Positions 12,563 to 28,173 of a DNA stretch of 44,940 nt are shown in pieces. Position numbers and translations under genes: made by a program. The DNA is taken from positions 1 through 44,940 of the forward strand of contig DYSB01000006.1 of NCBI GenBank assembly GCA_020726405.1, read 5' to 3'. The notes below the pieces were generated by a model that had not been told where the DNA came from, made no database searches, and saw only the letters and a list, made by a program, of their open reading frames with translations. The DNA is from Acetofilamentum sp. (GTDB taxonomy: Bacteria; CAIWAD01). Every line of letters begins with the position of its first letter. Positions within the stretch are counted from its first letter, which is position 1.

Positions 12563-13000
12563 TCAGCATCCGGTCTGCCCGCTTTCCCGTCGTGGCGAGT
12601 CCGCGCCGTCGCAGTACCCCGGGGAGTGGATGCGCAGACAGTCCGGACAGATGCCGTGGCTGAACTCCGTCCCCGTGTGGTCCCGCACATAGGCCTCGAT
12701 CTGCCGCCAGGCGCCTTTGTCGTCACGCACGCGGTGACAGTGGCTGCAAACGGGCAACATGCCCTGCAGCGTCATCAGGAGGCGGATCAGCAGACTGGTA
12801 GACATCATGACCACGCTGGCGCACAGCAGCGTCATGCCGGTCTCGATCAACCCCTCCACCCAGTTGAGGGGCGTGGGCTGGAAACCGAACCAAGCATGCG
12901 GCAGATCGAGGATCTCGTCCAACCACAACGCGGCGATCACGGCCAGAAAGCCCGTCGCCTCCATGAGAATCACACGTCGGCGGAGTTGCGCCACCTGCAT
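12563..13000 (-). CDS. Two-helix membrane protein with a C-terminal zinc-ribbon-like motif
   Basis: 145 residues with two membrane segments (TGFLAVIAALWLDEIL and TLLCASVVMMSTSLLIRLL). A compact cysteine module then follows: LPVCSHCHRVRDDKGAW, then the continuation EFSHGICPDCL. This Cys-x2-Cys ... Cys-x2-Cys module with an Arg-Asp-Asp-x-Gly-x-Trp core is familiar as a C-terminal appendage of bacterial PAS or response-regulator sensory proteins; here it stands on a short membrane anchor instead. Metal binding is likely from the cysteines but not shown. The ATG has GGAGG 5 nt upstream. It is the first gene after the terminator of the cytochrome locus. Confidence 0.75.
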   Translation of the reverse strand: MQVAQLRRRVILMEATGFLAVIAALWLDEILDLPHAWFGFQPTPLNWVEGLIETGMTLLCASVVMMSTSLLIRLLMTLQGMLPVCSHCHRVRDDKGAWRQIEAYVRDHTGTEFSHGICPDCLRIHSPGYCDGADSPRRESGQTGC

Positions 13001-13109: not shown

Positions 13110-13131
13110 GACCCCCGCCGGGGCGGGGGTC
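13110..13131 (-). terminator. Predicted terminator of the cytochrome operon
   Basis: A 10-bp perfect inverted repeat, GACCCCCGCC-GG-GGCGGGGGTC, starts 28 bp after the stop codon of the last cytochrome gene. On the transcribed strand it is followed by CTTCATGTT, only modestly T-rich. Its position at the end of a nine-gene run, before an unrelated gene, supports a terminator role. Confidence 0.65.
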
Positions 13132-13158
13132 GGTGGCGTCCTTGGCGCTGCGACGGTC

Positions 13159-14811
13159 TCAATAAGCCGCGCCGTTGTGCGGATGCCCGTGGCAACTCAG
13201 TGTGCAATTGCCCTGCTCCAGGGAGACGCGCTCGACCTTCAGCACGCCGTCCAGGGGCGCGACCCAGGGCTTGTCCAGCCGCAGCAGGCCGGGCTGATCG
13301 GGGGAGCCGTGCGGATCGTGGCAGGCCGCACAGCTGTAGCCACCCTGGTTGATATGCAGACGGTGCCAGCGCCAGCCCTGGCCGCCGTAGAACCAGCTCT
13401 CCTTGTGACACGTGAAGCAGAGGCCGTTCTCGTCCGCCTCGCCGGTCAAGTAGGGCGTGGGGTTGAACGGCGCCTTCAGCAGGTGCTCGATGTTCGAGCC
13501 ATGGGGCCCATGGGGTCCGCCCGGATCGTCGTTGCCGTGGCAGCTGGAACAGGTCAACTGGTCCAGGGGGCTCCACTCGGGTTTCAGGCTGGGCACGTCG
13601 GAGTTCATGCCGGGCCCCATCACCGCGTGCGTCGAGCGGTTGCCCAGGTCGAAATCCCGGGCAATGTCCCGCTGGCCGGGCAGCGTGCTGCTGGAGAAGC
13701 CGTGGCACTTGAGGCAGATCTCGTACTCGTAGTCCGCCGCGTCCTTGACCATGCCCAGGCGGCTGATGCCCGAGACGCCCTCCATGCTCGACGGCAGGTT
13801 GCCGGCCGCCGACTGGGCCGACGCGGCGTGCGGGTTGTGACAGTCCGAGCAGCGCACGGCGCGGTTTTCCCGTGATCCCGTCAGGAACCCGATGAAACCC
13901 GAGGCGTCCGGCTCGATGAACGAGGATCCCGTGTGCAGACTCACTGGGTGCGTGAAGAGCTTGTCGAACTCGCGCTTCAGGTTCTGCGGCGAGGGGACTT
14001 CGCGCGGCCCGTCCAAAGTGGCGTCGTGGCAGCGGAAGCAGAGGCTGTTCTCCTCCGCCAGCAGCAGCCGCGGCTGGGGCGGCGTCGCGTGGATACTGTG
14101 GCACTGGCTGCAAGAGAACTCGCGCATCTCGGCAAACAACGGATCGTCGGGATTGGCATGCACGCTGTGCGACCAGCCCTCCAATTGATGGCAGGTGAGA
14201 CAGATCTCACCCGCTGAGGCACTCACCTTGAGGAAGTTGCCCCGCGTGTTGTCGTGGGGATCGTGGCACGTGGAGCAGCGGATCCGGTCGCCGCGCAGGG
14301 TCATGCCCGTGAGCAGGCTGTCCGGCCGCACCAACTCGCGGTCCTGGTCGTTGAAGGTGAACAAGTGTGTGTTCATGTGGGTGGGGGGCGTCAGCGCCCG
14401 CTCGCCCAGGTCGATCTCGCGGCTGATGTGCGCGCCGGGATCCGTGGGGAAGGCCTGGGCCACGCTGCCATCGTGGCAGGCCAGGCAGATCTGGCTTGCC
14501 GGGTCGGCGGGAAAGCCGGGCTCGTCGTCATCCAGCTGGGCCCCCAGTTCGAAGGGGCCGCGCACCAGGCGGCGGTCCCAGAGCGGCACCAGCTGCTCGT
14601 GCACGCGGGGGCCGTGACACACCCGGCAGAGCTGGCGCTCCAGCGTGCTGTCCGGCTGGCCGTCCCCGCCGTGCCAGTGGGTCAGGTTGTGCGGCGAGGC
14701 CTGCACTCGCGAAGCATCCACCGGCAGGGCGGTCCGGCCGTCGGCGTCCGCCAGCAAGGTCAGTCCCAGCAGGGCCAGGGCTCCGCGCAGGAGGAGTGGG
14801 GATCGTATCAC
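13159..14811 (-). CDS. 12-heme c-type cytochrome (porin-associated)
   Basis: Secreted multiheme cytochrome of 550 residues: signal peptide (LLLRGALALLGLTLLADADG), 11 CxxCH motifs and a final Cys-x3-Cys-His (CTLSCH) ten residues from the C-terminus. Many motifs have the CHDPH or CHNPH form of doubled-CXXCH domains. The start is a GTG overlapping the barrel gene's TGA (GTGA), with GAGGAG upstream; earlier in-frame codons lie inside the barrel gene. As the last gene, right after the beta-barrel, it is the best candidate for the cytochrome plugged into the barrel or docked at one face of it. Extracellular or periplasmic location is undetermined. Confidence 0.92.
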   Translation of the reverse strand: MIRSPLLLRGALALLGLTLLADADGRTALPVDASRVQASPHNLTHWHGGDGQPDSTLERQLCRVCHGPRVHEQLVPLWDRRLVRGPFELGAQLDDDEPGFPADPASQICLACHDGSVAQAFPTDPGAHISREIDLGERALTPPTHMNTHLFTFNDQDRELVRPDSLLTGMTLRGDRIRCSTCHDPHDNTRGNFLKVSASAGEICLTCHQLEGWSHSVHANPDDPLFAEMREFSCSQCHSIHATPPQPRLLLAEENSLCFRCHDATLDGPREVPSPQNLKREFDKLFTHPVSLHTGSSFIEPDASGFIGFLTGSRENRAVRCSDCHNPHAASAQSAAGNLPSSMEGVSGISRLGMVKDAADYEYEICLKCHGFSSSTLPGQRDIARDFDLGNRSTHAVMGPGMNSDVPSLKPEWSPLDQLTCSSCHGNDDPGGPHGPHGSNIEHLLKAPFNPTPYLTGEADENGLCFTCHKESWFYGGQGWRWHRLHINQGGYSCAACHDPHGSPDQPGLLRLDKPWVAPLDGVLKVERVSLEQGNCTLSCHGHPHNGAAY

Positions 14812-16598
14812 CAGAGTCTCCTCAGCACATGGATCCAGGCCTGGGTGTCCGTGTCGCCAAAGTTGGCGGGGTCCCCCACGAAGCGCAGGTCGGCCGTCAG
14901 TTGCAGTTTGTTCATCTCGAAATCCGCGAAGGCGCGGATCCACATGCGTTCCGGCAGTGGATCCCGCCGGGGACGCCAGACGCCCCGCAGATTGAAGGTG
15001 GCCGGACGGACGGGCTGCCAGCGCAGTTGCGCGGCCACGCGGCGCTCCCACTTCACCGGATCCTCGTCCAACAGATGCTGGACGCTCATGCCCGAGAGAC
15101 GGGCCTGGATGCGGTTACGACGCCACTTGATCCACAGCTCGTTGTTGATCGTGTTGCGCAGGGTGTCGTCGCTGAACACCAGGTCCGTGCCCACGTGCCG
15201 GCGCCAGTCCACGTTGTGTCCGATTTGGAAGCTGCCATGTGGCAGCAGGGTGCTGCCCAGGCCCAACAGGTTGTCCGCCTCGCGCTGCAGCGTCCTGGCT
15301 GTGGGCGCGACGATCTCCTGGTCCTGCAGCCGGAACAGTTCGCCGCGGGCCAGCTCGCGCAGGTTCAGGCCCAGCCAGTCCACGGGTTCCACGGGCAGCA
15401 GGAGTTCCAGTTCGCCCCGCCCCGTGATTCCGTTGCCGTACTCGGCGGTCTCGGACCAGCCGCCGCCCAGGTCGCCGCGCAGCACCAGGTCCCGCTTGAG
15501 CCACATGCCGTGCCGGATCGGCTGACTCCAGTCCGTCTGCACGCCCTCCGCCGTCTGGGCTGCGGCCCATGCCGCCAAGGGGTGCCAATCATAGATCGCC
15601 AGAGCCAGGTAGTCCCGCCGATGGCTGCGGTCCACGTCGTCCACCTGGGCCCGGTCGCTGGAGATGCGCAGTTCGCTGCCCAAAACCTGCGTGGGCATCC
15701 AGCGCCAGGACAGGCTGGCCTGGCGGCGATAGATGCTGCGCTCGTCCTGCTTGGTGTAATCGGCGCCCGCGTTGGCCGCGAGGCGATGCGGGCCCTGCTG
15801 CCAGCGCACGCGGTTCTGGCCCAGCAGGCGCCGGACGCCTTCACGCTCCACCAGTCCCGAGTTGCTGTGCACCGCCGCCCTGCCCGGCACCGTGCCCGCC
15901 AGGGTCAAGCCCGCCAGGCTGCGCTGCAGGTCGAAGTCCAGGCTGTCCGCCAGCCCGTACCAGGAACTCTCGCCCCAGCCCCGGATGAGGAACTGGTTCC
16001 AGGCGGGAATGCGCTGCTCCAGCTCTCCGCGCAGGAAGCGGTGGTCGGAGGTCGTCTGCTCATTGAGCACGCGGCGGTTGCCCGCGCTCACGGTGAGTTC
16101 GGTGTGATCCAGTGGCCGCAAGGCCAGCCGCGCGCCAAGGATCAGGTCGCGCAGGCGCAGGCTGTCCACCAGGAAGGCGTTGGGCCGGCGCCAGCCATAG
16201 CGGCTGAACAGGCCCAGCTGCACCTGATGCACGGGTTTCCAGTCCAGGTCGCCTTGCAGTTCCGGCGTGTAGACGCGCTGCTCGTAGAGCGTGTTTTGGG
16301 CCAGTGTGGCCCCCGTGCGCACGAGATAGCGCAGCTCGCCCGGCGCGGGCAGTACGCCGTGCGCCCCGACGATCACCCGCGTGGTGTGCAGGTTGAGGTC
16401 TTCCTGGAAGGCGCCGGCGTAGCTACTGTCGCTGAGCCACGTGCTGGTGTGGTCCAGCCAGCCGTCCAGCGTGAACTGCCGGGTGGGCTGATAGGCGGGC
16501 GTCCGCAGCCACTGGGGCAGGCTCCACTCCCGGGCCTGGGCGCCCGTGCCGGCCAGCAGGCTCAGGCCCAGCAGGACTCCGATTCCGCGGTGGTTCAT
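14808..16598 (-). CDS. Outer-membrane beta-barrel protein of a porin-cytochrome conduit
   Basis: 596 residues with a signal peptide (GIGVLLGLSLLAGTGAQA) followed by alternating polar/hydrophobic strands throughout. It ends in an aromatic residue (HVLRRLW), the usual C-terminal signal of bacterial outer-membrane barrels. It contains no cysteine, so the N-terminal CxxC of Shewanella MtrB is missing. Its place between a propeller lipoprotein and the 12-heme cytochrome, with four-base overlaps on both sides, argues for the insulating porin of a trans-outer-membrane electron conduit comparable in role to MtrB or the Geobacter OmbB and Ext barrels. That equivalence is by architecture; I see no direct sequence motif for it. 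Confidence 0.85.
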   Translation of the reverse strand: MNHRGIGVLLGLSLLAGTGAQAREWSLPQWLRTPAYQPTRQFTLDGWLDHTSTWLSDSSYAGAFQEDLNLHTTRVIVGAHGVLPAPGELRYLVRTGATLAQNTLYEQRVYTPELQGDLDWKPVHQVQLGLFSRYGWRRPNAFLVDSLRLRDLILGARLALRPLDHTELTVSAGNRRVLNEQTTSDHRFLRGELEQRIPAWNQFLIRGWGESSWYGLADSLDFDLQRSLAGLTLAGTVPGRAAVHSNSGLVEREGVRRLLGQNRVRWQQGPHRLAANAGADYTKQDERSIYRRQASLSWRWMPTQVLGSELRISSDRAQVDDVDRSHRRDYLALAIYDWHPLAAWAAAQTAEGVQTDWSQPIRHGMWLKRDLVLRGDLGGGWSETAEYGNGITGRGELELLLPVEPVDWLGLNLRELARGELFRLQDQEIVAPTARTLQREADNLLGLGSTLLPHGSFQIGHNVDWRRHVGTDLVFSDDTLRNTINNELWIKWRRNRIQARLSGMSVQHLLDEDPVKWERRVAAQLRWQPVRPATFNLRGVWRPRRDPLPERMWIRAFADFEMNKLQLTADLRFVGDPANFGDTDTQAWIHVLRRLW

Positions 16599-17611
16599 GG
16601 CGTCACCTCCGCGGAGAGATAGGGCAGATAGCGATAAACCTGCACGCGTCGGTTGTATTGGTCGGCGATGAAGAGGCGATTGCCCTCCGCGCAGATGGCG
16701 CTGGGCAACAGGAAGTCGTTGTTCGTGCGGCCCGTGGATCCGAACCAGTAGAGCAGGGCGCCGCCCTGGCTGAAGACCTGCACGCGATTCACGCCGGCGT
16801 CGCTGACGTAGAGGTTGCCGTCGGTGTCGAAGGCCAGGCCCTTGGGAAACATGAAACCGCCCGGCGCGTGGTCATAGACGCCAAACGCGGCGTCGGGCCG
16901 GCCTTCGCGCGTGAAGGCCTGCACGCGGTGATTGAGCGCGTCCAGCACCCAGAGCCGGCCGTCCGGGCTCGTGCAGACGGCGACGGGATGCAGGAACTCG
17001 CCCGGTCCCGTGCCCTCCGAACCCACCGTGCGCAGCCAGCGGCCCGCGCCGTCGAAGACCTGCACCAGGTGCCGGCCCGCGTCGGCGATGTAGAGGAACT
17101 CGCCGTCCCAGTGCATCTGGCCGGGACGCTTCCAGCCATCCGGCGCCTCCAGCTCTCCCTTCAGCAGGCCGGCGGTTTGCCCCAGCAGGAAGACCTTGGC
17201 GCGGCCGGCGTCGGCCACGGCAATGCCCGCCGGGAAAGACTCCACGCCCGAGGGCGTGGCGAACTCGGGGATCTGGAACACCTCGTAGGGTCGCGGGGAA
17301 CAGCCGTCCACGCTGAGCCGGATCACCTGCGACAGATCGCCATCGCAGACCAGCACGCGGCCCTCGGAGTCCATGTCCAGGTCGGTGGGCCGACCGACGG
17401 CGGCCAAGTCGCAGCCGCCCGTGAGGACGCGCAGGGCCCGGATGCCCGCTCCGCCGTCCCGCCGGATCTGGGTGAGCAGGTCCCCCTCGTGCATGAACAG
17501 CGTGTCTGTGCCGGCGGCCACCAGGGGCCGTTCCGCGCGCTCGCTGAGCGTGGCGCAACCGGCCAGCAGCGCGAGCAGAAGCAAGGGGAAGAGGCGACGG
17601 GTGACGTTCAT
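16595..17611 (-). CDS. NHL-type beta-propeller lipoprotein
   Basis: 338 residues with lipobox LLALLAGC (Cys19) and repeated propeller blades: GEFLYIADAGRHLVQVFDGAG, then GRLWVLDALNHRVQAFTREG, GNLYVSDAGVNRVQVFSQGG, and RLFIADQYNRRVQVYRYL. NHL propellers are protein-interaction scaffolds and occur in porin-cytochrome loci of other bacteria, presumably holding the cytochromes. It overlaps its upstream and downstream genes by four bases each (ATGA), so its synthesis is tied to the 18-heme cytochrome and the barrel. I start at MNVTRRLF because the ATG lies in that overlap and precedes a proper lipoprotein signal. Confidence 0.87.
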   Translation of the reverse strand: MNVTRRLFPLLLLALLAGCATLSERAERPLVAAGTDTLFMHEGDLLTQIRRDGGAGIRALRVLTGGCDLAAVGRPTDLDMDSEGRVLVCDGDLSQVIRLSVDGCSPRPYEVFQIPEFATPSGVESFPAGIAVADAGRAKVFLLGQTAGLLKGELEAPDGWKRPGQMHWDGEFLYIADAGRHLVQVFDGAGRWLRTVGSEGTGPGEFLHPVAVCTSPDGRLWVLDALNHRVQAFTREGRPDAAFGVYDHAPGGFMFPKGLAFDTDGNLYVSDAGVNRVQVFSQGGALLYWFGSTGRTNNDFLLPSAICAEGNRLFIADQYNRRVQVYRYLPYLSAEVTP

Positions 17612-19794
17612 GGCAGAATCCGCTTGTCGCTCAGGTGATAGTACCGGTGCTTCCAGAGGGCTTTGTCGCCGTGGCAATCCGAACACACCGCCTCGCTGGT
17701 CTCCTGCCGGAGGAAGTCCGGCGAGGACTCGCCGCCCGTGGGAGGCTGCGCCACGTGCGGATTGTGGCAGCTGGTGCAGTCCACGTGGCCCACCGGCCCC
17801 AGGGCCCGGGCCTGGTTCTCGAAGAGCGGCATGCTGCGGCCGTCCGGCCGCCAGGGACCGTCCACCGTCAGGTACTTCTGGGGATGTCCCCAGGCCTCGG
17901 GGATGCGCGTGGCCAAGCCCTGCTCTCGATGGCAGGACAGGCAGTGGCGGGCTCCGGGCGACCAGTTCTCCGGGTTCCGCTCCAGGGCGGTCGCGGGGAA
18001 GCCGCGCGTGACGCTGTCCATCTGGGCATTGGTCAGGCTGCTGGCGATGATCGCCCAGTCGGAGACCGCGCGGTGCGTGGTGTGACAGGCCCGGCAGGCG
18101 CTCTGGTTGGGTTGGCGCTCGCCCAGATCATGGCCGGATCCCAGCACGTGGGCCTCCTGCTTGTGACACGCGGTGCAGAGCTGGGCCCCCGTGTTGTCCA
18201 GTCGCAGGAAACTCGAGGCGTCGTCGCCCTGGGCGTCGGGCCCCGTCCAGGAGGGCGCCCCGGCCGGCCGCCAGTGATGCGGCTCATGGCAGGATTCGCA
18301 GCCCACCAGCAGATCGACGCCCGTCGGCGCGTCGGCGCCCGGTTTCCAGGTGCGCAGGTTGTCCGCCCGGTATCCCGGCAGGCCGTCTTCCGCCTTCAGC
18401 TTGACAGACAGCAGGTGGCCATGCTCGCCCAGCGGCGTGGCCCCGTGCCGGCCCTGACCCTCGTGGCAGGAGAGGCAGAGACTGGTGAATTCCGAGACCC
18501 CGCCATTGGCATGGCCATCCGAGAAGGAGGCCTTCTCGTGCGTGTTGTGGCAGGACGTGCACTGGCCCCGGCTGGGCTCCTTCCAGTTGAAGGAGTTGTG
18601 GTCGCTCACCAGGGTTTGGGCCTCCGCCGTGTGGCAGGTTACGCAGAGCCGCCCGTTTTCGTCGTCGGGCAGCCGCAGGAAGCTGCTCAACGCGTCGCCC
18701 TCTTCCCCGCCGGGACCGGGTCGGCCATCCGCTTGCGGACTCCATTGGTGGGGATCGTGGCAGGTGGTGCAACTCATGCGCTGCGCGCTTCGCAAGGGCA
18801 GCAGGTTGCCGGCGTTCTTCACCGTGGCGTCCATGGTGTGCCCGTGGCCCACCCAGGTCTTGGCGGAGGCGGCGCCCTTGTCCTGGTGGCAGCTCAGGCA
18901 GCGCGCATCCACTCCCGCGGACACGGGGTCCGCCGCCCGGCCATTGGGCAGTGGCCAGGCCCACATGGACGCGCCCTTGCCCCCGTGGCTCACGTGGCAG
19001 GCGGCGCAGGCGTCCGCCGTGCCCGCCGTCTTGCCCGTGTTCCCGATGGTCAGGTTCGGATGCGACAACGCCAGATGATGGTCCGATTCCAGGATGGCGA
19101 ATGAGGACTCGTGGCAGCTTCTGCAGAGCGCGGTCCGGTCCCCCTCCACCATCAGCTTGGCGCTCACGGGATCGTGCGGATTGTGACAGCTCAGGCATTC
19201 CACCTTGGTGGCCGAGACGTGGCGGCCGGCCAGCGCCTCGGGCAAGGGGCTCTCCAGACTGGCGTGGATGGGATGGTCGGTGCCGCGCCGAGCGTGGTCG
19301 GAGTGGCACTTCAGGCACAACGCCGAGTTCTCGGTCTCCTCCCTCAGGAAGGGGATGTACATGAACTCGCGTTCCATCTTGTTCATGTGCGGCGTATGGC
19401 AGGTGCCGCAGTACATCTCCCCGTTGAGGTCAAGGGGAAGGCCGCTCCCCTTCGTCCCGTGAGGGTTGCTGGCCTTGCGGGCGTGGGGATTGCCCTGCTT
19501 GAAGTAGGCGCGCGAATCGCCCACATACCCATCGTGACAGGACCAGCACATGTCCTGGGTGGATACGCGGGCCTCCTTGCCATCGATTAGGATGGGATGG
19601 TCCACCGGTGGCAGCAAGGGCGCCATCTTCTCATAGCCGTCGCCCCACTCCACGTGGCAGATGACGCACTCCTTGGAGCGGTCCATCTTCAGCTGGGACA
19701 TGGCGGGCTGCGCCAGCCCCAGGGCCAGCAGTCCGACCACCGCTACCAGGACCACGCACCGCGCAGTGTTTCCAGCGAATCCGCGGGTGCTCAA
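17608..19794 (-). CDS. 18-heme c-type cytochrome
   Basis: Secreted multiheme cytochrome of about 728 residues with 18 canonical CxxCH motifs spread evenly (first at CVICH, last at CSDCH). Most are followed by a second His two or three residues later (CHNPH, CHTPH, CHDPH), suggesting bis-His ligation. The signal peptide is VVLVAVVGLLALGLAQPAMS, without a lipobox. I favour the TTG start because an ideal AAGGAGG lies 8 nt before it; an ATG 24 bp earlier (19818) is the alternative and has only a weak site. Its size and heme number fit an extended electron wire of the extracellular or outer-membrane conduit. It is followed, with a four-base overlap, by the propeller lipoprotein. Confidence 0.9.
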   Translation of the reverse strand: MSTRGFAGNTARCVVLVAVVGLLALGLAQPAMSQLKMDRSKECVICHVEWGDGYEKMAPLLPPVDHPILIDGKEARVSTQDMCWSCHDGYVGDSRAYFKQGNPHARKASNPHGTKGSGLPLDLNGEMYCGTCHTPHMNKMEREFMYIPFLREETENSALCLKCHSDHARRGTDHPIHASLESPLPEALAGRHVSATKVECLSCHNPHDPVSAKLMVEGDRTALCRSCHESSFAILESDHHLALSHPNLTIGNTGKTAGTADACAACHVSHGGKGASMWAWPLPNGRAADPVSAGVDARCLSCHQDKGAASAKTWVGHGHTMDATVKNAGNLLPLRSAQRMSCTTCHDPHQWSPQADGRPGPGGEEGDALSSFLRLPDDENGRLCVTCHTAEAQTLVSDHNSFNWKEPSRGQCTSCHNTHEKASFSDGHANGGVSEFTSLCLSCHEGQGRHGATPLGEHGHLLSVKLKAEDGLPGYRADNLRTWKPGADAPTGVDLLVGCESCHEPHHWRPAGAPSWTGPDAQGDDASSFLRLDNTGAQLCTACHKQEAHVLGSGHDLGERQPNQSACRACHTTHRAVSDWAIIASSLTNAQMDSVTRGFPATALERNPENWSPGARHCLSCHREQGLATRIPEAWGHPQKYLTVDGPWRPDGRSMPLFENQARALGPVGHVDCTSCHNPHVAQPPTGGESSPDFLRQETSEAVCSDCHGDKALWKHRYYHLSDKRILP

Positions 19795-19832
19795 GTCCGG
19801 CTCCTCCTTGTCACACATTCAAGACTCCGCGT

Positions 19833-20780
19833 TCAGGGGATGTCGAAGCGGACGATCCGGCTTGCCTTGCTGTCCACCACCCACCAGGACGACCCGCAGC
19901 ACGCGATGGCCGTGGGACCCTCCAAGCGCCAGGGTTTGCCCTTCAGCATGAGCATTCCCTGGCTTTGGGCATACTCGTCGTAGGCGTGGACCATGCCCAA
20001 GTAGCTGTCGGTGATCAGCAGGCCCTTGCCGTTCCAGCAGGCGCAGGCGCCCTTGGGACGGTAGAGGCGCTCGCCGTCGGTCCCGAAGGAACCCACCATG
20101 CGGTCGAAGTTCCCCAGGCGGGTGTAGGCCTGGATGCGCCCACCCAGCACGTCGATGACCATGAAACCGTTCTGGTGCCGAGCCAGGATGCCCGGGAACT
20201 TGAATTCCTCCACCCTCTCGCCGGGGCGTCCGTCGGGGAGGGTCATCCCCGCCATGCGCCGCATGGGTTTGATCTCGCCGCCGCCGCGCCCGATCACCTG
20301 CAGCAATGCCCCGTCATACGAGACGAAGAGCAGCCGGTGGTTGTCGTTGTCGCTGACCACCAGCTTGTCCTCCAAAGCCAGCACGTCCACCGGGTCGCAG
20401 TTGCCGGGCAGCTGGATAGTCTGCAAGAGCTTGCCTTCCAATCCCATCACAAAGATGGAACCCGCCTCGGGATCGCTGACATAAAGCCGGTCCTTCCAGA
20501 TGTCGTTTCCCAGCGGGTTGACGAAGCCCGGATTGGTGATCTCACGAAGCAGCTGCCCCTGCGGGCTGATCACCACCACTCGTCTGTTCAGCCCATCCAC
20601 CACGTAGGCATTGGACTTGGCGTCCGTGGCCAGGTCCGTGGGAAAGGTGGTCCCGGCCTTCACGTCCTGGAGGATGCGCACCTCCACGGCCCACGCGGCA
20701 CGCGGCACCAGCGACAAGGCAAGCAACAGGCCCAGCCACGCGAGCGGCTTAATAGGCCGGAGGCAGGAAGAAGATTTCAT
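19833..20780 (-). CDS. Secreted NHL-type beta-propeller protein
   Basis: 315 residues with a signal peptide (LAWLGLLLALSLVPRAAWA) and propeller blades such as NAYVVDGLNRRVVVISPQG, then RLYVSDPEAGSIFVMGLEG, KLVVSDNDNHRLLFVSYDG, and GLLITDSYLGMVHAYDEY. Unlike the second propeller in the operon it has no lipobox, so it is probably soluble in the periplasm or exported. The gene begins inside the last codons of the CbcL-like gene (32-bp overlap), which suggests coupled translation. The ATG is preferred; a GTG two codons earlier is possible. The likely role is a scaffold for the neighbouring cytochromes, inferred from fold and context. Confidence 0.85.
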   Translation of the reverse strand: MKSSSCLRPIKPLAWLGLLLALSLVPRAAWAVEVRILQDVKAGTTFPTDLATDAKSNAYVVDGLNRRVVVISPQGQLLREITNPGFVNPLGNDIWKDRLYVSDPEAGSIFVMGLEGKLLQTIQLPGNCDPVDVLALEDKLVVSDNDNHRLLFVSYDGALLQVIGRGGGEIKPMRRMAGMTLPDGRPGERVEEFKFPGILARHQNGFMVIDVLGGRIQAYTRLGNFDRMVGSFGTDGERLYRPKGACACWNGKGLLITDSYLGMVHAYDEYAQSQGMLMLKGKPWRLEGPTAIACCGSSWWVVDSKASRIVRFDIP

Positions 20781-23322
20781 TGTCACTCACACTGGCTGTG
20801 ATGGCGCTGCTGCGCAGGGCGCGCACCCGGTTTTCGTCGAAGCCCACGGCTTGGAAATCCAACAGGCCGCCTTCCGCCACGTGGCACTCCGTACAGGTGG
20901 CTCCCGTGCCGACGCCGGATTGGACGCGATCGTGGAAGGTGTCCTTGGTGTCCTGCATGCGGGCCTGGGTCATGGGGGCGCTGTTGGCCAGGTACTCCTT
21001 GGCCCGCTCGCTGCCCAGGTCGGCGAAGAGCGGCTGGCCTCCCACCTTGATTCCGAGCAGGCTGGTGAAGTTGTCCAGGCCCGTGTCCGCAGGCTCCTCC
21101 AGCAGCTTGTAGGGCATGGCCGGATCCCCTTCCACCTTCACCCGCAGATCCAGCCAAGCGAAGTTCGCCGACACCCGGTCCTCCGGCTTGGCGTGGCAGG
21201 ACTCGCAGGTCATGAAGCGGCTGTGCAGGTTGAGGTAGGCGCGCGTCTTGAGCTCCTTCTGGTGCGGCAGCATGGAATGGCAGAGCAGGCATTCGCTCGG
21301 TCGCAGGTTCTCGTCCACCGTGACCACGGGCACTGAATCGTGGAAGCGGCGATGCCGCCAATCCACGTCCTCATGGGCCACGCGCAGCGGATAGCTCGGA
21401 TCCGCCAGCGCCGCCTCCTTGTCCGCCAGGGGACGCTTGCACCACTGGTCCACGATGGCCTCGGAATCCGGTTTGTTGTCCAGCCCCAGATAGAGGCGGA
21501 AGGACCAGATCATGGCCGCGCAAGTGCCGATGGTGAGCACCAGGAAGGACCAGCCCAGGGTCCGAGCCACCACCGAGCGGGCCGCACGGCGACGCTCCGG
21601 CTTTCCCGTCACCTCATTGAGAAGGATGGCGCCGTGGGTCTCCAGGGCGTCCGGCGCCAACAACGCGCCGTGCTCCTCCTCCATGTCATCCTCGCCCATC
21701 TTGCCGTCGATCCAGATCTCGCTCATGGGCCAGCGGGCGGGCTTCCAATGGACATTCCAGAAGTGCCAGACCACGATGGCCGCCACGGCCAAAATGGCCT
21801 CCAGCGAGTGCACCAGACGCGCCAAATCCACCACGAACTTGGAGCCCAGCTGCTCGAACCACAGGATGATGCCCGTACCCGTCATCACCACGGAGCCCCA
21901 GGCAAAGGCCCAGTACTCCATCTTTTCGCCGTAGTTGAAGAAGCCGAACGCCGGACGGTCCTTGCGGTGCCCCAGCATGAAGGCCAGGTTGTGGGTCACG
22001 AGCTTGATGTCCGCGGGGCCTGGCAGCATGGCCCACATCAGCGCTCGGCCGCGCTTGGTGAACATGGCGTAGCCCACGTGGTACACGGAGACCAGGGTCA
22101 GCATGATGGCCGCCACCCGGTGGCTCCAATCCCGCGCCGGCATGAAGTACTCCCACTGCACCAGCGTGCCGAAGCGGGCGGGCGGAATCCACAGCATCAC
22201 GCCGGTCAGGGCCAGCAGCGTGAAGCTCACGAACATGACCACGTGGCTGATGCGCTCCGCCGGGGTCAGGCGCTTGAACACCCGCCGCACGGCGCTGTCC
22301 TTCTTCTCGTGGGTGGCGAGCTGCTTGCGATGCCGTCTCCAGGCCACGTAGTCCAGCAGGTTGTGGAACAGCATGCCGCCGATGGTGAGCAGGATGATCC
22401 AGATGTAGACCCACTTCACCCAGACCAGGATGCTGGCCTTCGCTCCCTGGTAGAGGTCGTGCATGGAACCGGCGGTGGCGAACTCGATGGTGGCCCCGTC
22501 ATGGCAACCCACCGTGCTGCAAGTCTGCTGAAGGTTGCTGGCGTGGATCATGGACTTGGCATCGTCCTGGCTGCGGATGCCGTGGGTGCCATGGCAGTCC
22601 GCGCACACCGGGCTGCGCTTGTCGCCCAGGTTGAACCCGCGTCCGTGGAAGGACTCGAGGAAGCTCGAGACCATTGTGCCGTCCACGAGCAGGGCCTGCA
22701 GACTGTCCGAGACCAGCTCGTTGTCCGTGTGGCAGCGGATGCAGGCCTCGAAGTTCTGCTGGTGGCGCCAGTACTCGTCCTCGCTCATGTGCAAGGCGAG
22801 ATGTTTGAAATCCTCGTCCAGCTCGTTGTAATTCTCATGGCATTGGCGGCACTTCTCCTCCGCGCCCTTGAGGTTCCCGGGCATTTCCTGGGCGTACACC
22901 GTATTGAAGTGACAGTCCTTGCACTCGGGCTTGAGGTGGTCATTCTTGCCTTCACCGGACTTGCCGTGCACAGAGGCCGCCAATTCCTTGGCATGGGGGA
23001 AGTGGCTGAAATCCCTGCCCGTGTAGGGGTCGATGACATGGCAGGCCACCGCGCAGTTCACCTTCTGCACGGGCGTGCGGTGTGGCACCTGGTCCACGTC
23101 CGTGTGGCATTGGCGACAGGCGAAGCGGCCGTGGACGGACTCCTTGTGGATCCCTTCATCCACGTAGAAATTGCGCACGCCCAGGGAATCCGACACAGCC
23201 ATCCAGGGCTTGCCATGGCAAAACAGGCAGTTCTCAGGATCGAAACGCATGTCTTGGGCCTGGACGGAACCGCTAAGCGCAAGGACCAGCAGGCAGGACA
23301 GCAGGGCCGACAGTCTCAACAT
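20749..23322 (-). CDS. CbcL-like fusion of multiheme cytochrome c and membrane cytochrome b
   Basis: 857 residues. After a signal peptide (LSALLSCLLVLALSGSVQA), the first 280 residues hold eight heme motifs: six CxxCH, one Cys-x3-Cys-His (CAVACH) and one Cys-x4-Cys-His (CSTVGCH). A membrane part of six helices (about 295-605) follows, with His residues in GMLFHNLLDY, ISHVVMFVSF, DWSHRVAA, VYHVGYAMF and LVHSLEAI, as in FdnI/cytochrome b561-type diheme subunits. A C-terminal soluble part (610-857) adds three CxxCH motifs. Geobacter CbcL has the same c-plus-b fusion and oxidises menaquinol for metal reduction, so this is the likely inner-membrane entry point. The C-terminal heme domain appears additional to that plan. 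The ATG has GGAGG. Confidence 0.88.
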   Translation of the reverse strand: MLRLSALLSCLLVLALSGSVQAQDMRFDPENCLFCHGKPWMAVSDSLGVRNFYVDEGIHKESVHGRFACRQCHTDVDQVPHRTPVQKVNCAVACHVIDPYTGRDFSHFPHAKELAASVHGKSGEGKNDHLKPECKDCHFNTVYAQEMPGNLKGAEEKCRQCHENYNELDEDFKHLALHMSEDEYWRHQQNFEACIRCHTDNELVSDSLQALLVDGTMVSSFLESFHGRGFNLGDKRSPVCADCHGTHGIRSQDDAKSMIHASNLQQTCSTVGCHDGATIEFATAGSMHDLYQGAKASILVWVKWVYIWIILLTIGGMLFHNLLDYVAWRRHRKQLATHEKKDSAVRRVFKRLTPAERISHVVMFVSFTLLALTGVMLWIPPARFGTLVQWEYFMPARDWSHRVAAIMLTLVSVYHVGYAMFTKRGRALMWAMLPGPADIKLVTHNLAFMLGHRKDRPAFGFFNYGEKMEYWAFAWGSVVMTGTGIILWFEQLGSKFVVDLARLVHSLEAILAVAAIVVWHFWNVHWKPARWPMSEIWIDGKMGEDDMEEEHGALLAPDALETHGAILLNEVTGKPERRRAARSVVARTLGWSFLVLTIGTCAAMIWSFRLYLGLDNKPDSEAIVDQWCKRPLADKEAALADPSYPLRVAHEDVDWRHRRFHDSVPVVTVDENLRPSECLLCHSMLPHQKELKTRAYLNLHSRFMTCESCHAKPEDRVSANFAWLDLRVKVEGDPAMPYKLLEEPADTGLDNFTSLLGIKVGGQPLFADLGSERAKEYLANSAPMTQARMQDTKDTFHDRVQSGVGTGATCTECHVAEGGLLDFQAVGFDENRVRALRSSAITASVSDNEIFFLPPAY

Positions 23323-23416
23323 GAATCCTCCAGAGCCGGAAACACGAGGCAGGAGTTGTTGGATCCTGGCAGGATAGGTCGACAGCGGAGCACCATGCCT
23401 GGGTCCACGCGTCCGC

Positions 23417-24349
23417 TTACAGGTCATGGCAGGCATAGCAGATCCGCTCCTTGGGCGCCCGCAGCAACATGGCGGCCGGGGACTCCGTTCCTCCGCAGGC
23501 CGGATTGGGCGAGTGGCACGTGGTGCATGTAAGGAACTCGCCCTCCCGCAGGGGGAGGTTGGTTCCGGACGCTTCCTGGAATCGCGCGAGAGCGGATGCC
23601 GTGTCCATCTTCAGTCGGTTGTGTTTCACGGATTTGCCGATGTGCTCGCGCTCGTGCTTGACGTCCTTGTGGCACTTCAGGCACAGTTCGCCGGCGGGCA
23701 GCTGGATGCTCTTGCCCGGCCGGACCGCGTCCTGACCCGGCGTGTGGCAATACCAGCAGAGATTGGCATCCCCCGCGGTGCGATGCGGGTTCTTCTGGGG
23801 ATAGAGGGCGCGCTCGTGGCACTGGTAGCAGAAGTCCGTCTCCCGGGGCCAGGGGCCGCCCACCAGCATGGCGCGGTTCTCCCGGTGCACGCGGAAATTG
23901 CCGTCCCCCTTGCAGCCGATGTTGTGGCAGGTCAGGCACGTGGAGCGGCCGTCCTGCAGGCGCGCGCCTTTGAAGGACGGCGCCTTGGGGTTGTCCCCGG
24001 CGAAGTTGGTGGGATGGATCTCCCGCAGGTGCGCCACGGGGTCGTGGCACTCTGTGCAGGATTCAGCCCGGAACGAGGCGGTGCCGGGCTCGGCGCCGGC
24101 GACGTGACACTCCGCGCAGCGGTTCTCGCGGCCATGCGGGTTTTGCTTGCCCGGCCGGGTCAAGTGGTGGGTCAGCGTGTCACGCGGGGCGGGTGTATTG
24201 CAGGCCGGAGCGCCAGGCGCACACAGTCCGCAGGAGGCGGCCTTGGGGGCCTCGGCCGTGGCGGCAGGGCCCATCAGCAACAGGAACGCGCCGGCGCTGA
24301 GGGCCGCCAGCAGGAACCAAAGGAGGCTGCGGGTTGCAGGTCGTTCCAC
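23417..24349 (-). CDS. 8-heme c-type cytochrome, membrane-anchored or secreted
   Basis: 310 residues from a GTG start. An N-terminal hydrophobic segment (LLWFLLAALSAGAFLLLMG) serves as signal or anchor, followed by a short cysteine-rich stretch (CGLCAPGAPAC) and eight canonical CxxCH motifs; the last (CYACHDL) ends the protein. I chose this GTG because GGAG lies 6 nt upstream and because it follows the hairpin after the rhodanese gene. Two earlier GTGs (24364 and 24457, the latter inside the rhodanese gene) have poorer sites. It lies between the rhodanese lipoprotein and the CbcL-like gene, 94 bp before the latter, so a periplasmic carrier role between membrane quinol oxidation and the outer conduit is plausible. 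Confidence 0.87.
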   Translation of the reverse strand: MERPATRSLLWFLLAALSAGAFLLLMGPAATAEAPKAASCGLCAPGAPACNTPAPRDTLTHHLTRPGKQNPHGRENRCAECHVAGAEPGTASFRAESCTECHDPVAHLREIHPTNFAGDNPKAPSFKGARLQDGRSTCLTCHNIGCKGDGNFRVHRENRAMLVGGPWPRETDFCYQCHERALYPQKNPHRTAGDANLCWYCHTPGQDAVRPGKSIQLPAGELCLKCHKDVKHEREHIGKSVKHNRLKMDTASALARFQEASGTNLPLREGEFLTCTTCHSPNPACGGTESPAAMLLRAPKERICYACHDL

Positions 24350-24378
24350 CGGGGACTCCGCCACTTGGATAGGGGACT

Positions 24379-24402
24379 CCGGAGCCGCCGCAGCGGCTCC
24401 GG
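24379..24402 (-). repeat. Hairpin after the rhodanese gene
   Basis: A perfect 10-bp stem, CCGGAGCCGC-CGCA-GCGGCTCCGG, begins about 12 bp after the rhodanese stop codon and precedes the chosen start of the 8-heme cytochrome. There is no U-tract. It could attenuate transcription or stabilise the upstream mRNA, giving different protein amounts within one operon. Confidence 0.5.
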
Positions 24403-24414
24403 GCTCCAGATTGA

Positions 24415-26253
24415 CTAGTTGGTCACAACAGGATAATCGTAGTTCTGCAGGACCCACTGGCTGGCGACCGGCAGATTGTCATGCATCAGACCGTTGGCAC
24501 CGTATGAGAGGCTCAATACATCGTAGCCCAGAGCGCACAGGTAGAAGCTCGTGAATGCGCTGGTCTGGCCCGTCCAGCAGTACAGCACGTTGGTCTCGGT
24601 GGGATGGAGGCCGCCCAGATCCGTGGAGGTGGTCACCGCGCCGGGGGTCAGTTGATAGGCACCGTCGATGTGTCCGACACTCTCGAAGTCCGTCGCATTC
24701 CAATAGTTGTAGACGTTGTAGGCTGAAGGATCCGCCATCAGGGTGGTATTCGTGATGGTATATGCGCCAAAGCCCTCGGCAAGCATGGCGTCCACCCGAG
24801 CCTCAAGGATGGCTTGGCCGCTGGTCAAGCCGGTGTTCAAGGTGGGCCAGTCGTTGCTGGGCAGGGCCGGGCTGGCCGTGTACACCATGTCCGCCGAGTA
24901 GTCATTGCTGACATTGCTTTCCCAGCGGGTTGCCAGGTCGTTCCTCCAACTGCACATGCCCCACTTCATGCAGAAGGCGTCGTGGCCCAGCATGCGCAGC
25001 GCCATGTTGGCGAAGGCAGCCGTCTGGCCCGTGTAACACACCAGCGCCACCTCATTTTCCAGGGTGTTGTTGGTGGTCACATAGTCCGGCAGGTCGGACA
25101 GTGTCGGCACATTGTGCGCGCCCTCGATGTGCCCAAGTGCATAATCCGCGGCGCTGCGAAGGTCCACGATGAACAGGTCGGCCATGTTGGTATGGACGTA
25201 TTCCGCCGTCTTCACCGGTGTGGTGCTCCACGTGGCGAATTGTGCGTCGGTGACCTCCGTCAGCAGCTCGAACTCGTTGGTCTGCTGGCCGATTGCGTAG
25301 TCGTAATTGGCGTGATAGCCGCCCATCTGCCAAGCGTGGCTGGCGTCCAGCGCGGAGTGGATCATGCCGTTGGCGCCGAACTTCAGCGACAGGGCGTCAT
25401 AGCCCATCACATTCAGATAGAAGGCCGTGAAGGCGCTGGTCTGGCCCGTCCAGCAGTAGATCACGTTGTCGCCGTCGGGATCCAGGGCCGTCAGGTTCTC
25501 ATCGGTGGTCAGGGTGCCCGGAGTCAGCTGGAAGGCGCCGGGAACGTGGCCGAAGGCGGCGTAGTCGGCGGCCGCCCAGTAGTTGTAGGTTTCGTAGTCG
25601 TCCAGGGCGCTGAAGACCTGGGCCGCGGTGACGGTGTTGGCGCCGAAGCCTTCGGTCAGGACGGCCGCGATGCGGGCGTCAAGGATCGCCTCGCCTGTGG
25701 TTTGTCCGGTGTGCAACACGGGCATGGCCGTGTAGACCGGCAGGCTCGGGGCGTTGTCAGCGCTGAACTGGGCCACGTAGTCGCTGGAGGCGCCGCTGTC
25801 CCAGCTGGGGGCGAACGCGTCGTTCCAGGATGCCATGCCGAACTTCATGGCGAAGGCGTCATCAAAGCCCGCCATGCGCAGGGCCATGGTGCACCAGGAG
25901 GCCGTCTGGCCCGTGTAACACACCATGCAGATGGTGCTGGAGCCGGCGCTGGCGGCCGCTTCCACGACATCCGCGGCCGCCACATTGTGGGCGCCTTCGA
26001 TGTGGCCGGCGGCGAAGTCCGTCGCCGAGCGCACGTCCATGACGTACAGGTTGGACAGGTTGGTCTGCACGTAGGAGGCCGGCTGGATCCACGAGGTGGT
26101 CCAAGCGGCGAACTGGCCGTCGGTGATGTCGGACAAGAGCGCGAACTCGTCCGCTGCCGGCGTGGTGGTGTCGTCGTCGTCGTCCGAGCAGCCCGTGAAG
26201 ACGGACAGGGTCAGGGCCACTGACAGAGCCAGGGCGGCTTTCGTGTGCTTCAT
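24415..26253 (-). CDS. Lipoprotein with four rhodanese domains
   Basis: 612 residues with a lipobox (TLSVFTGC, Cys22), an acidic linker and four rhodanese-like domains. Each has an active-site cysteine in a CYTGQT or CWTGQT loop, at residues 112, 267, 406 and 559. The domains alternate as A-B-A'-B': the A type has DVRSATDFAAGHIEGAHN before CYTGQT, the B type has YNYWAAADYAAFGHVPGA before CWTGQT. This shows a duplication of a two-domain unit of about 300 residues. Rhodaneses move sulfane sulfur; all four cysteines are kept, so all could be active. Rhodanese-like lipoproteins are known from some Geobacter outer-membrane conduit loci (ext clusters). The ATG has AAGGAGAG. It follows the 11-heme cytochrome by 108 bp. 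Confidence 0.9.
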   Translation of the reverse strand: MKHTKAALALSVALTLSVFTGCSDDDDDTTTPAADEFALLSDITDGQFAAWTTSWIQPASYVQTNLSNLYVMDVRSATDFAAGHIEGAHNVAAADVVEAAASAGSSTICMVCYTGQTASWCTMALRMAGFDDAFAMKFGMASWNDAFAPSWDSGASSDYVAQFSADNAPSLPVYTAMPVLHTGQTTGEAILDARIAAVLTEGFGANTVTAAQVFSALDDYETYNYWAAADYAAFGHVPGAFQLTPGTLTTDENLTALDPDGDNVIYCWTGQTSAFTAFYLNVMGYDALSLKFGANGMIHSALDASHAWQMGGYHANYDYAIGQQTNEFELLTEVTDAQFATWSTTPVKTAEYVHTNMADLFIVDLRSAADYALGHIEGAHNVPTLSDLPDYVTTNNTLENEVALVCYTGQTAAFANMALRMLGHDAFCMKWGMCSWRNDLATRWESNVSNDYSADMVYTASPALPSNDWPTLNTGLTSGQAILEARVDAMLAEGFGAYTITNTTLMADPSAYNVYNYWNATDFESVGHIDGAYQLTPGAVTTSTDLGGLHPTETNVLYCWTGQTSAFTSFYLCALGYDVLSLSYGANGLMHDNLPVASQWVLQNYDYPVVTN

Positions 26254-26361
26254 GTACTCTCCTTGCGATGATTCTTCTGGGGCTTGGCGATGCCCCGCTC
26301 ACTGATCCATTCGACCCGTCGACCCTCCCAGACCGCCGGGTGCGACCCTTCCCACATCAAT

Positions 26362-27687
26362 TCAATGCCGGTTCCAATACTGACTGATGCTGTCGTCCAC
26401 GGCCACGTGGCGGTTGGCCCGGATGTACTCGTCGGGATCGCTAAGCCCTGTCACGGAGCTCTTCAGGCTGTCCAGGTGGCTCATCCACAGGAAGCGACGG
26501 GCGTTCTCCATTTCGTTGGGTCCCTGCACATGGCAGTTCATCCAGCAGTCGGCCATGCCGTAGGCCGGGTTGGTGAGAGCGATCTCCGTCTGCGGCGTGA
26601 AGCGCTGGATGTTGTGCGGGCTGGCGTATTCCCAGGTCTCGAAGGCCGACCAAGCGGGTTGGGAGGGCAGACCCCACTCGCGGTAGCCGTCTTTGATCAC
26701 CGGCACGTGGCGCACCGTCACCCATTCCTCGCGCTCCACCGGATGATTGGCCCAGGAGCCCGTGTTGCGGCCAATGCGGAAATCCATGTATTCGGTGTAG
26801 CCCTCGGGATCCGCGCTGCTCCACACGCCACCCGAATGGCAATTGAGGCAGTTGGCGTAGGGCTGGCTGTGGCAAACATGGCAGGAAAGACCCTCTTCCT
26901 CGGAGTCACCCGGCCAGTGGTACGCATGGAACAGGTTGTCGTCGGATGCCAGGGAGTGGCAATCCACGCACTGGGGAAGGCCGTCCACCTCGTAGCGCGA
27001 CGTATAGTCCGTGCGCCCGTCCCCGTGCAGGTCCTCCTTGTGGCAGAAGAAGCAGTCGTAACCAAGTTCCTGGTGGACATCCGGACGGTTCCCCTCGTGG
27101 TGGCCGGTGAAGTCATTGCCCACCCGACTGCCGTGGCAGGCCGTGCAATTGTTCTCCATGTCGGGCACGCGCTGGAAGAGGTGGCTGTTGAGGAAACCGC
27201 CGTGCACGCCGTTGGGACGGGAGACGTGGCATTGTCCGCAGGTGGTGTGACACGTGGCGCACTCCGTTGTGTGGCCGTCTTGCAGGGCCTGGGGACACTC
27301 GGCGAAGGATGAAACCCCCGCCCGCAGAGCCACTTTATGCTTCTCGCCCCAGAGCTGCGTGTGCATGGAGGTGGCGTTGAGCGCCACGATCTGGGCATGG
27401 CAGCCGGCGCCGTTGCAATTCGACTCGGCCTGGGACGAGGGGTCGCGCAGGACGCCCTTGACTTCGGGTTTGCGCCGGATCAGCACACCCTGATCGTCAT
27501 ACTCCGCCTCGAATTCGTGGGCCCTGGCCATGGCCACCCACAGGTCGTCGCGGGCCTCGCTGGCCGCCACGACGGGTTCGGTGCCGCCGTGACAGGTCAC
27601 GCAGCCCACGGCCGCGTGGTTGGGGTCGATTTCAGCGTAGGTCGCGGCGTTGATGAAGACCTTCTCGAAGGGTTCCAACGGAACCAC
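26362..27687 (-). CDS. Multiheme c-type cytochrome, main part (10 heme motifs), separated from its signal peptide by TGA
   Basis: 441 residues with eight CxxCH motifs, a Cys-x4-Cys-His (CNGAGCH) and a Cys-x3-Cys-His (CWMNCH). The pair CATCHTTCGQCH places two hemes side by side. The open frame continues upstream, in the same phase, into a short gene that carries the lipoprotein signal and an eleventh motif; a single TGA separates them. This part on its own has only a GTG (with GAGG, partly made by the TGA itself, 7 nt upstream) and no signal peptide, so it could not be exported and loaded with heme unless the stop is bypassed. Either the gene is broken, the sequence has an error, or readthrough occurs. 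It is the first cytochrome of the operon. Confidence 0.82.
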   Translation of the reverse strand: MVPLEPFEKVFINAATYAEIDPNHAAVGCVTCHGGTEPVVAASEARDDLWVAMARAHEFEAEYDDQGVLIRRKPEVKGVLRDPSSQAESNCNGAGCHAQIVALNATSMHTQLWGEKHKVALRAGVSSFAECPQALQDGHTTECATCHTTCGQCHVSRPNGVHGGFLNSHLFQRVPDMENNCTACHGSRVGNDFTGHHEGNRPDVHQELGYDCFFCHKEDLHGDGRTDYTSRYEVDGLPQCVDCHSLASDDNLFHAYHWPGDSEEEGLSCHVCHSQPYANCLNCHSGGVWSSADPEGYTEYMDFRIGRNTGSWANHPVEREEWVTVRHVPVIKDGYREWGLPSQPAWSAFETWEYASPHNIQRFTPQTEIALTNPAYGMADCWMNCHVQGPNEMENARRFLWMSHLDSLKSSVTGLSDPDEYIRANRHVAVDDSISQYWNRH

Positions 27688-27696
27688 GGTGCCGCC

Positions 27697-27924
27697 TCAG
27701 CCACCGCCCCCGCCGCCGCTGCCGCTGCCGTCATCGATGGCCAGGCGCCGCAGATAGGCCCGCGTGGTGTGACAACCTTCACAGGTCAACACCACGGATT
27801 CCGCACCCATCTCCGGGGCCTGGCGCACCGGCTCGATCCTCTCGCAGGAGAGCAGCAGCAGCGCCAGGACGACGAGGCTGAGTCCGCAGCTCCAGGAGGA
27901 AGAAGCAGGATGTGGGTGCACCAT
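27697..27924 (-). CDS. N-terminal piece of the 11-heme lipoprotein cytochrome
   Basis: 75 residues: lipoprotein signal (LSLVVLALLLLSC, Cys27), one heme motif (CEGCHTTRAYLRRL) and a glycine-serine linker ending in six glycines, then TGA. The next three codons (Gly-Gly-Thr) and the following cytochrome sequence are in the same frame, so this is the front of the downstream cytochrome rather than an independent small gene. The ATG has AGGA 8 nt upstream. With the stop removed the protein would be about 519 residues with 11 heme motifs and would be anchored as a lipoprotein. Confidence 0.75.
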   Translation of the reverse strand: MVHPHPASSSWSCGLSLVVLALLLLSCERIEPVRQAPEMGAESVVLTCEGCHTTRAYLRRLAIDDGSGSGGGGGG

Positions 27925-28107
27925 GGCGCGTTCCTAATGTTTCACTGGTTGCGACTTGGTTCGACGGCGCTGCCGGACCCGACCTTCATCGGGAGCCACG
28001 GGGCAGTGCCAGAGGCATTTTTAACAAGTTGGGAAGATTAGACAATTTTCGAACTATCTCCCGACAATTCTGCTGCCGTTCGGCTTTGAAACTGTTAGCA
28101 CTTTGAC

Positions 28108-28156
28108 AATATAGCCGAGAGCGCTTGAGAATCAAGTGATCATTGAGTGATCATTG
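28108..28156 (-). promoter_or_regulatory. Predicted promoter and tandem operator of the cytochrome operon
   Basis: On the leftward strand TTGATT (28135-28130) and TATATT (28113-28108) are separated by 16 bp, a good housekeeping-type promoter about 180 bp before the first cytochrome gene. Immediately upstream of the -35 lie two perfect tandem copies of AGTGATCATTG (28135-28145 and 28146-28156), each containing the palindrome TGATCA. Their 11-bp spacing puts both on one face of the helix, as expected for an activator site. A further palindrome, CTTGA-GAA-TCAAG (28124-28136), covers the -35. The leader between promoter and gene (27925-28107) contains no evident gene. Confidence 0.55.
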
Positions 28157-28173
28157 CTTGTCAGTAGAATGGA

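Follow-up and report, generated by a model that had tools for sequence, protein, structure and literature searches.

What kind of respiratory system is encoded by a gene cluster that joins 60 heme-c sites with a lipoprotein of four rhodanese domains, and which of its parts define it? The cluster lies in a window of 44,940 nucleotides (the whole stretch of DNA that was analysed), which forms contig C159 in a draft assembly of 3.06 Mb (281 contigs, 92% complete). Nine genes on the minus strand (13159-27924), transcribed in the order I-H-G-F-E-D-C-B-A, leave little space between them, and the pairs D/C and B/A overlap in ATGA/GTGA fashion; all features of the locus described below are on this strand. 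The earlier note on this DNA had listed nine leftward genes, 60 heme-c sites, a four-rhodanese lipoprotein and two NHL propellers, and the open reading frames, motif counts and Pfam matches agree with it, the sites being distributed over genes I (11), G (8), F (11), D (18) and A (12). It had also proposed a single promoter and terminator. A promoter-like match, TTGATT-16-TATATT, upstream of gene I (28108-28135) and a terminator-like hairpin after gene A (13110-13131) do bracket the genes, and promoter-like matches are confined to the region upstream of the locus (28039-28170); both are consensus matches only and weak evidence. Downstream of the operon, at 12563-13000 on the minus strand, lies a gene for a small conserved protein, with CSHCH around the centre, which recurs in both congeners (51-53% identical) and has no Pfam match. 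Elsewhere in the window (32580-35816, minus strand), a fused B12-binding/MeaB/methylmalonyl-CoA mutase of IcmF-like architecture adjoins an Ada-type protein.

We investigated gene I (26362-27924), which encodes a c-type cytochrome lipoprotein with an LLSC lipobox and nine CxxCH, one Cx3CH and one Cx4CH motifs. Its reading frame of 520 codons includes an in-frame TGA (27697-27699) that corresponds to residue 76, between the first and second hemes, in the context GGG-U-GG. Read literally, with a break at the TGA, the gene lacks a signal peptide and one of its heme sites, keeping 10 of 11; the 11-motif cytochrome of the earlier note stands if the TGA is read through, the codon itself having gone unmentioned there. 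The TGA is present at the same place in all four family genomes, as GGC-TGA-GGC inside Gly-Gly-U-Gly-Gly, and of the 44 homologues that could be assessed, which come from many phyla, 38 have UGA in a glycine-rich context (Gly-Gly-U-Gly-Gly or similar), these homologues being loci and not independent species, drawn from two genome collections that may overlap. The site was read by tblastn-anchored alignment in loci L070-L088. The six other homologues carry Cys (L032, L035), Ser (L052), Leu (L037) or Trp (L033), or miss the segment (L082); Sec/Cys exchange among orthologues is thus present. The Trp form, from Anaerolineae (L033:9734-11176), has TGG at the Sec site with the downstream hairpin intact, and its close relative L034 has TGA; either Sec gave way to Trp recently or the sequence is in error.

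A SECIS-like hairpin of eight pairs with the apical loop GUU (27669-27687) occupies the positions 12-30 nt after the U of the UGA. In the gap-free alignment of the 38 UGA sequences, standard pairs fill 82.6% of the cells of this helix, compared with 39-52% when the two sides are slid by 1-3 columns. The covariation is 0.588, against at most 0.262 for slid and 0.205 ± 0.027 for shuffled alignments, and 0 of 500 shuffles reach 0.588. Changes on both sides of the helix are seen in 68 cells, where 22.7 were expected, and the loop GUU is kept in 29 of the 38 sequences. The position just 3' of the UGA and the G/U in the apical loop are those by which a SECIS element is recognised.

Of the selenocysteine machinery, both selA and selB are over cut-off in the window genome, on the same contig (selA at 500.8 bits, cut-off 267.9), while selA was over cut-off in only 1 of the 14 genomes of a control set. 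A tRNA-Sec with the TCA anticodon was found in four relatives; in the window genome itself, a 92%-complete draft, no match exceeded the cut-off. Among the genomes with the UGA form, 27 of 29 contain selA, both exceptions being incomplete drafts, and it occurs in 0 of 4 genomes with the Cys form or without the segment. The three genomes with Trp, Leu or Ser at the Sec site do carry selA, and these forms may therefore be recent Sec losses or sequence errors.

TGA is the normal stop of the window genome, with 1 internal TGA against 157 TGG in 14 genes, and a code in which TGA reads as tryptophan was rejected on these counts. This usual role is what favours a true stop in gene I, whether the gene is broken, misassembled or in fact codes for two separate products, a reading whose probability is practically negligible in view of the UGA in 38 of 44 homologues, the covarying hairpin and the selA correlation (on which a mutation or assembly error was rejected), together with the Cys orthologues and a downstream half that alone has no signal peptide. 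Because the conserved UGA, the covarying hairpin, the presence of selA and selB and the selA correlation concur, gene I almost certainly encodes a selenoprotein, the sequences establishing the UGA as a selenocysteine codon.

Thirty-two relatives of gene I were recovered in a genome-collection scan using the read-through alignment, from carriers that include Calditrichaceae, Melioribacter, Anaerolineae, Acidimicrobiia, Spirochaetales, Clostridia and others. In a broad 386-genome sample, 18 strong matches were obtained, 16 of them with an internal TGA, which places the family in about 4% of the genomes. Most of the proteins have lipoprotein-like N-termini. Anoxynatronum buryatiense (L047) is a cultured carrier, with a protein of about 450 residues. 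As reading stops at the UGA, genes of this family are probably truncated or split by ordinary annotation, with the loss of the signal peptide, the first heme and the Sec of gene I.

A 2026 review lists 119 selenoprotein families or subfamilies, whose cytochrome-type entries are ExtKL, the GSU2204 barrel and the TIGR04315 octaheme protein (PMC13188914). The scanned members of the gene I family do not match the models of any of these three, and the family is absent from NCBIfam and from the 119-family inventory. Homology with ExtKL was rejected: gene I has no match to the ExtKL profile NF040886 at E ≤ 10, nor is there a genome-level match at gene I, and a profile comparison with hhalign aligned 18 columns, that is, one heme motif. 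A true ExtKL, whose genome belongs to one family with a Geobacter MAG, carries its Sec elsewhere: it follows five hemes, in AGHGIPDGUPTPNR, within a C-terminal region unrelated to gene I. That genome (G416:C1) has two ExtKL genes about 20 kb apart (1225369-1226661 and 1246540-1247829), each with one in-frame TGA. In the same way, homology with octaheme sulfite or tetrathionate reductases is unsupported, since gene I has no significant relation to them beyond the heme motifs (MccA, E 0.011; no TIGR04315 match). The structure model of gene I (pLDDT 67, Sec loop disordered) gave no PDB fold match with Foldseek. By these comparisons, gene I appears to represent a cytochrome family that has members in many bacterial phyla and is new to NCBIfam and to the 2026 inventory.

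Gene H (24415-26253), which follows gene I, encodes a lipoprotein with four rhodanese domains (PF00581, 2.5e-39, four stretches) whose active-site loops read CYTGQTA or CWTGQTS, the CYTGQT/CWTGQT part being kept in all four domains. A rhodanese gene was found directly beside gene I in 14 of the 14 genomes checked, although there are only 2-11 rhodanese matches per genome. The pair also recurs in the contig set, in which many negatives are short contigs. Monoderm lineages retain it, and no outer-membrane barrel was seen beside gene I in Clostridia and Anaerolineae. The products of I and H very probably form a functional pair and, judged from gene content, the constant core is the Sec multiheme cytochrome with the rhodanese, not the conduit. 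Additionally, ResB/CcsA cytochrome-maturation genes adjoin gene I in Spirochaetales and Clostridia. A PAS and sigma-54 activator (PF00158, PF13426) is encoded near gene I in four unrelated lineages (L032:8433-9755, L110:6765-8174, L111:11853-13247 and L112:11416-12807); a MerR-type regulator is near gene I instead in L028.

The other seven genes of the window's locus would supply the wiring. Gene G (23417-24457, start uncertain) encodes an 8-heme cytochrome according to motif count, Pfam scan and synteny. Gene F (20749-23322), starting at ATG 23322 with AGGA upstream, encodes a CbcL-like quinol dehydrogenase with eight N-terminal hemes, a cytochrome b561 membrane domain (PF01292, 1e-11, besides cytochrome c families) and three C-terminal hemes, its motifs being nine CxxCH, one Cx3CH and one Cx4CH; in layout it has the multiheme domain fused to a b-type membrane domain that characterises CbcL. 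Gene E (19833-20780) specifies an exported NHL propeller (PF01436, 2e-6), gene D (17608-19818) an exported cytochrome with 18 CxxCH motifs (PF09699/PF14522) and gene C (16595-17611) an NHL propeller lipoprotein with an LAGC lipobox (PF01436, 2.4e-26). Gene A (13159-14811), which overlaps B by GTGA, encodes an exported cytochrome with 11 CxxCH and one Cx3CH motifs, weakly DmsE/MtrA-like (decaheme model TIGR03508, 2.7e-20; 72.9 bits, below the 192.2-bit cut-off).

Gene B (14808-16598) encodes a protein of 596 residues, predicted to be an outer-membrane beta-barrel, with a C-terminal aromatic W and no Cys. Its AlphaFold2 model shows, at low confidence (pLDDT 55), about 26 long strands that may close into a barrel, and every PDB fold match listed (best E 2e-6) is to an outer-membrane or usher barrel. 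The barrel prediction, whose failure had been named in the earlier note as a reason to abandon its reading, did not fail at the low confidence of this model. No Pfam or NCBIfam family was reached by gene B, MtrB-type porin included, and the gene occurs in 4 of the 386 sampled genomes, all four within the window's family.

The two remaining genomes of the genus preserve the locus in synteny, as I-H-G-[extra set]-F-E-D-C-B-A. The extra set (L005, L006), between G and F, encodes an 8-heme protein, a cytochrome b and a triheme protein, which are the parts of F as three genes; the window genome is without this second, split CbcL-like set, and the arrangement suggests that gene F is a fusion of a set of this type. 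The sister genus carries the reduced order I-H-G-NHL-B-A, without F, D and E.

Outside the window's family, a porin-like protein is encoded beside homologous 11-14-heme proteins in seven diderm loci (L028, L030, L032, L109, L111, L113 and L114). These proteins are exported and 396-430 residues long, most have aromatic C-termini, their amphipathic alternation has z values of 2-4.5 compared with about 0 in controls, and some weakly match OmpA, OMP_b-brl, Porin_4 or LptD. A CbcL-like protein is present in five of the seven loci (L028, L030, L032, L111, L113), and the CbcL-like neighbours of gene I overall also include L044 and L045. In Anaerolineae (L033, L037), gene I has beside it a ferredoxin-like (NrfC) protein, NrfD and a 13-heme cytochrome. 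Locus L111 also contains a ferredoxin-like gene, a 7-TM protein and a 13-heme gene (13722-17013), two possibly quinol-linked systems there flanking one selenocytochrome-rhodanese pair. The barrel and cytochromes of the window's family differ from those of the seven diderm loci and the neighbours vary; the conduit is therefore repeatedly attached to the I-H pair, yet does not define it. In the window's genome, the outer-membrane conduit is probably part of the system. The quinol dehydrogenase and conduit of the earlier note are thus supported by gene content and by the independent recurrence of porins with multiheme cytochromes, usually with a CbcL-like protein, beside gene I in several diderm lineages, but not as the constant core.

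Rhodaneses hold sulfane sulfur on an active-site cysteine. The selenolate of gene I seems suited to accept such sulfur and to be reduced through heme, because it is alone, lies in a glycine loop beside heme 1 and has no resolving cysteine. We tentatively propose, at a little less than even likelihood, that the locus encodes a Sec-dependent cytochrome-rhodanese pair wired to menaquinol via an outer-membrane conduit and probably acting on sulfane sulfur. In such a system, F would oxidise menaquinol and pass electrons to the periplasmic cytochromes G and D and on to the 12-heme A coupled to the barrel B, through which they would cross the outer membrane to I, an outer-surface location of I and H being inferred. 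The lone selenolate of I, in its flexible loop between the first two hemes, would take sulfane sulfur from the rhodanese cysteine, and heme electrons would free this sulfur as sulfide. The likely net effect would be that thiosulfate, polysulfide or elemental sulfur is reduced extracellularly, in a system comparable to the rhodanese (Sud)-polysulfide reductase pair but built on heme and selenium. Taken on their own, a sulfur compound as substrate is about as probable as not, and reduction is the likelier direction. As a literature lead for sulfur, besides the rhodanese, growth on thiosulfate raises the expression of a Dethiobacter alkaliphilus multiheme cytochrome whose gene accompanies rhodanese genes (PMC10376724); this protein, DealDRAFT_1917, may belong to the gene I family.

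The earlier note had called the cluster a self-contained 15 kb extracellular electron transfer locus. The gene cluster is confirmed; that reading is partly supported and one of several, and the core is gene I with its rhodanese. General extracellular electron transfer to minerals, humics, electrodes or partner cells, with rhodanese and Sec as accessories, would account for the 60 hemes, the quinol dehydrogenase, the barrel with its overlapping 12-heme gene and the porin-cytochrome neighbours that recur beside gene I. We nevertheless consider it unlikely, since the I-H core lacks a neighbouring barrel in Clostridia and Anaerolineae and the rhodanese is constant where the conduit parts are variable, barrel B being found in so few of the sampled genomes. 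Sulfur oxide respiration without outer-membrane electron transfer had been named in the earlier note among the outcomes that would overturn its reading, and the rhodanese does point to sulfur or selenium chemistry.

A role in reducing selenite or tellurite or in taking up selenium, like the one put forward for Geobacter extHIJKLMNOPQS, would fit the parallel parts of that cluster (rhodanese lipoprotein, porin, Sec-cytochrome, 12-/10-heme cytochromes and cytochrome b), in which deletion of extI impairs selenite and tellurite reduction (PMC5877670, PMC6148476). It is rather improbable here: no scanned window protein passes an Ext family cut-off, the true ExtKL is not homologous to I, and selenite would seldom be abundant enough for so wide a family.

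The chain may also run inward, H and I oxidising extracellular sulfide, thiosulfate, pyrite or Fe(II) and electrons passing via the quinone pool to oxidases. Electron input instead of output is conceivable because heme-copper oxidases are present in all four family genomes. However, F resembles CbcL and FdnI-type b561, which usually oxidise on the quinol side, and many I-H carriers belong to anaerobic lineages (Clostridia, Spirochaetales, Anaerolineae). We regard an inward chain as quite improbable, although loci of the NHL/barrel/multiheme kind, Uet among them, have been connected with electron uptake (PMC10734462). Substrate and direction are given only the moderate odds stated above because the ext cluster is tied to selenite and tellurite and the family has oxidases.

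With reduction of sulfane sulfur as the preferred reading, the cluster resembles a respiratory system that handles sulfur and depends on selenium more than it does one for metal reduction alone. More broadly, and as a possibility that we hold with less confidence, there may be a widespread undescribed class of respiratory enzymes in which a Sec multiheme cytochrome and a dedicated rhodanese reduce extracellular sulfane sulfur, passed from cysteine to a heme-fed selenolate, and to which diderms have repeatedly added unrelated conduits. The locus adds a new selenoprotein family and links selenium, rhodanese sulfur chemistry and multiheme respiration in one module. It offers a testable reason for rhodaneses in porin-cytochrome loci, and its relatives exchange conduit parts around a constant catalytic pair. 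A better description of the locus is a new respiratory module of selenocytochrome and rhodanese, which in the window's genome comes with a probable outer-membrane conduit.

Among known systems, Geobacter extHIJKLMNOPQS, with the ExtKL selenocytochrome, the ExtH rhodanese and the ExtI porin, resembles the window's locus in its rhodanese lipoprotein, barrel, Sec multiheme cytochrome, further multiheme cytochromes and b-type quinol partner. No homology was found by any model tested, I and B missing the Ext models. Likewise, the ExtH, ExtM, ExtN, ExtO and ExtS models are not among the window-protein matches, with distant relatives below cut-off only, and the kinship check against Ext and MtrCAB that the earlier note had suggested ended with no family model of either passed. 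ExtKL has a C-terminal Sec in a 5-heme protein, whereas gene I has an N-terminal Sec in an 11-heme protein. The window's locus is without a Rieske protein and has added NHL propellers, and the similar parts of extHIJKL were linked to selenite and tellurite rather than sulfur (PMC5877670). CbcL, the Geobacter inner-membrane quinol dehydrogenase, is like F in the layout of an N-terminal multiheme domain and a b561 membrane domain; F has an extra C-terminal triheme domain.

The MtrCAB, OmbB-OmaB-OmcB, PCC3/PCC4, Uet and Desulfovibrio ferrophilus DFE_0448-0465 loci share a barrel or NHL protein and multiheme cytochromes with the window, but B has no MtrB or porin family match and A is below the DmsE cut-off; the portions consulted of the literature on these loci do not describe a Sec-cytochrome-rhodanese pair (PMC5566968, PMC10734462, PMC9769857). 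SirA/MccA sulfite reductase and the OTR octaheme cytochromes, which are sulfur-linked, are like gene I only as multiheme cytochromes; gene I has 11 hemes and a Sec loop, and no significant or profile match to them beyond heme motifs. MccA-type operons contain NrfC/NrfD partners, which are also beside gene I in Anaerolineae. In the Wolinella Sud-PsrABC system, an exported rhodanese hands sulfane sulfur to a membrane-linked reductase, as H would to I; that reductase is a molybdenum enzyme and I a heme/Sec cytochrome, and the likeness is one of analogy only.
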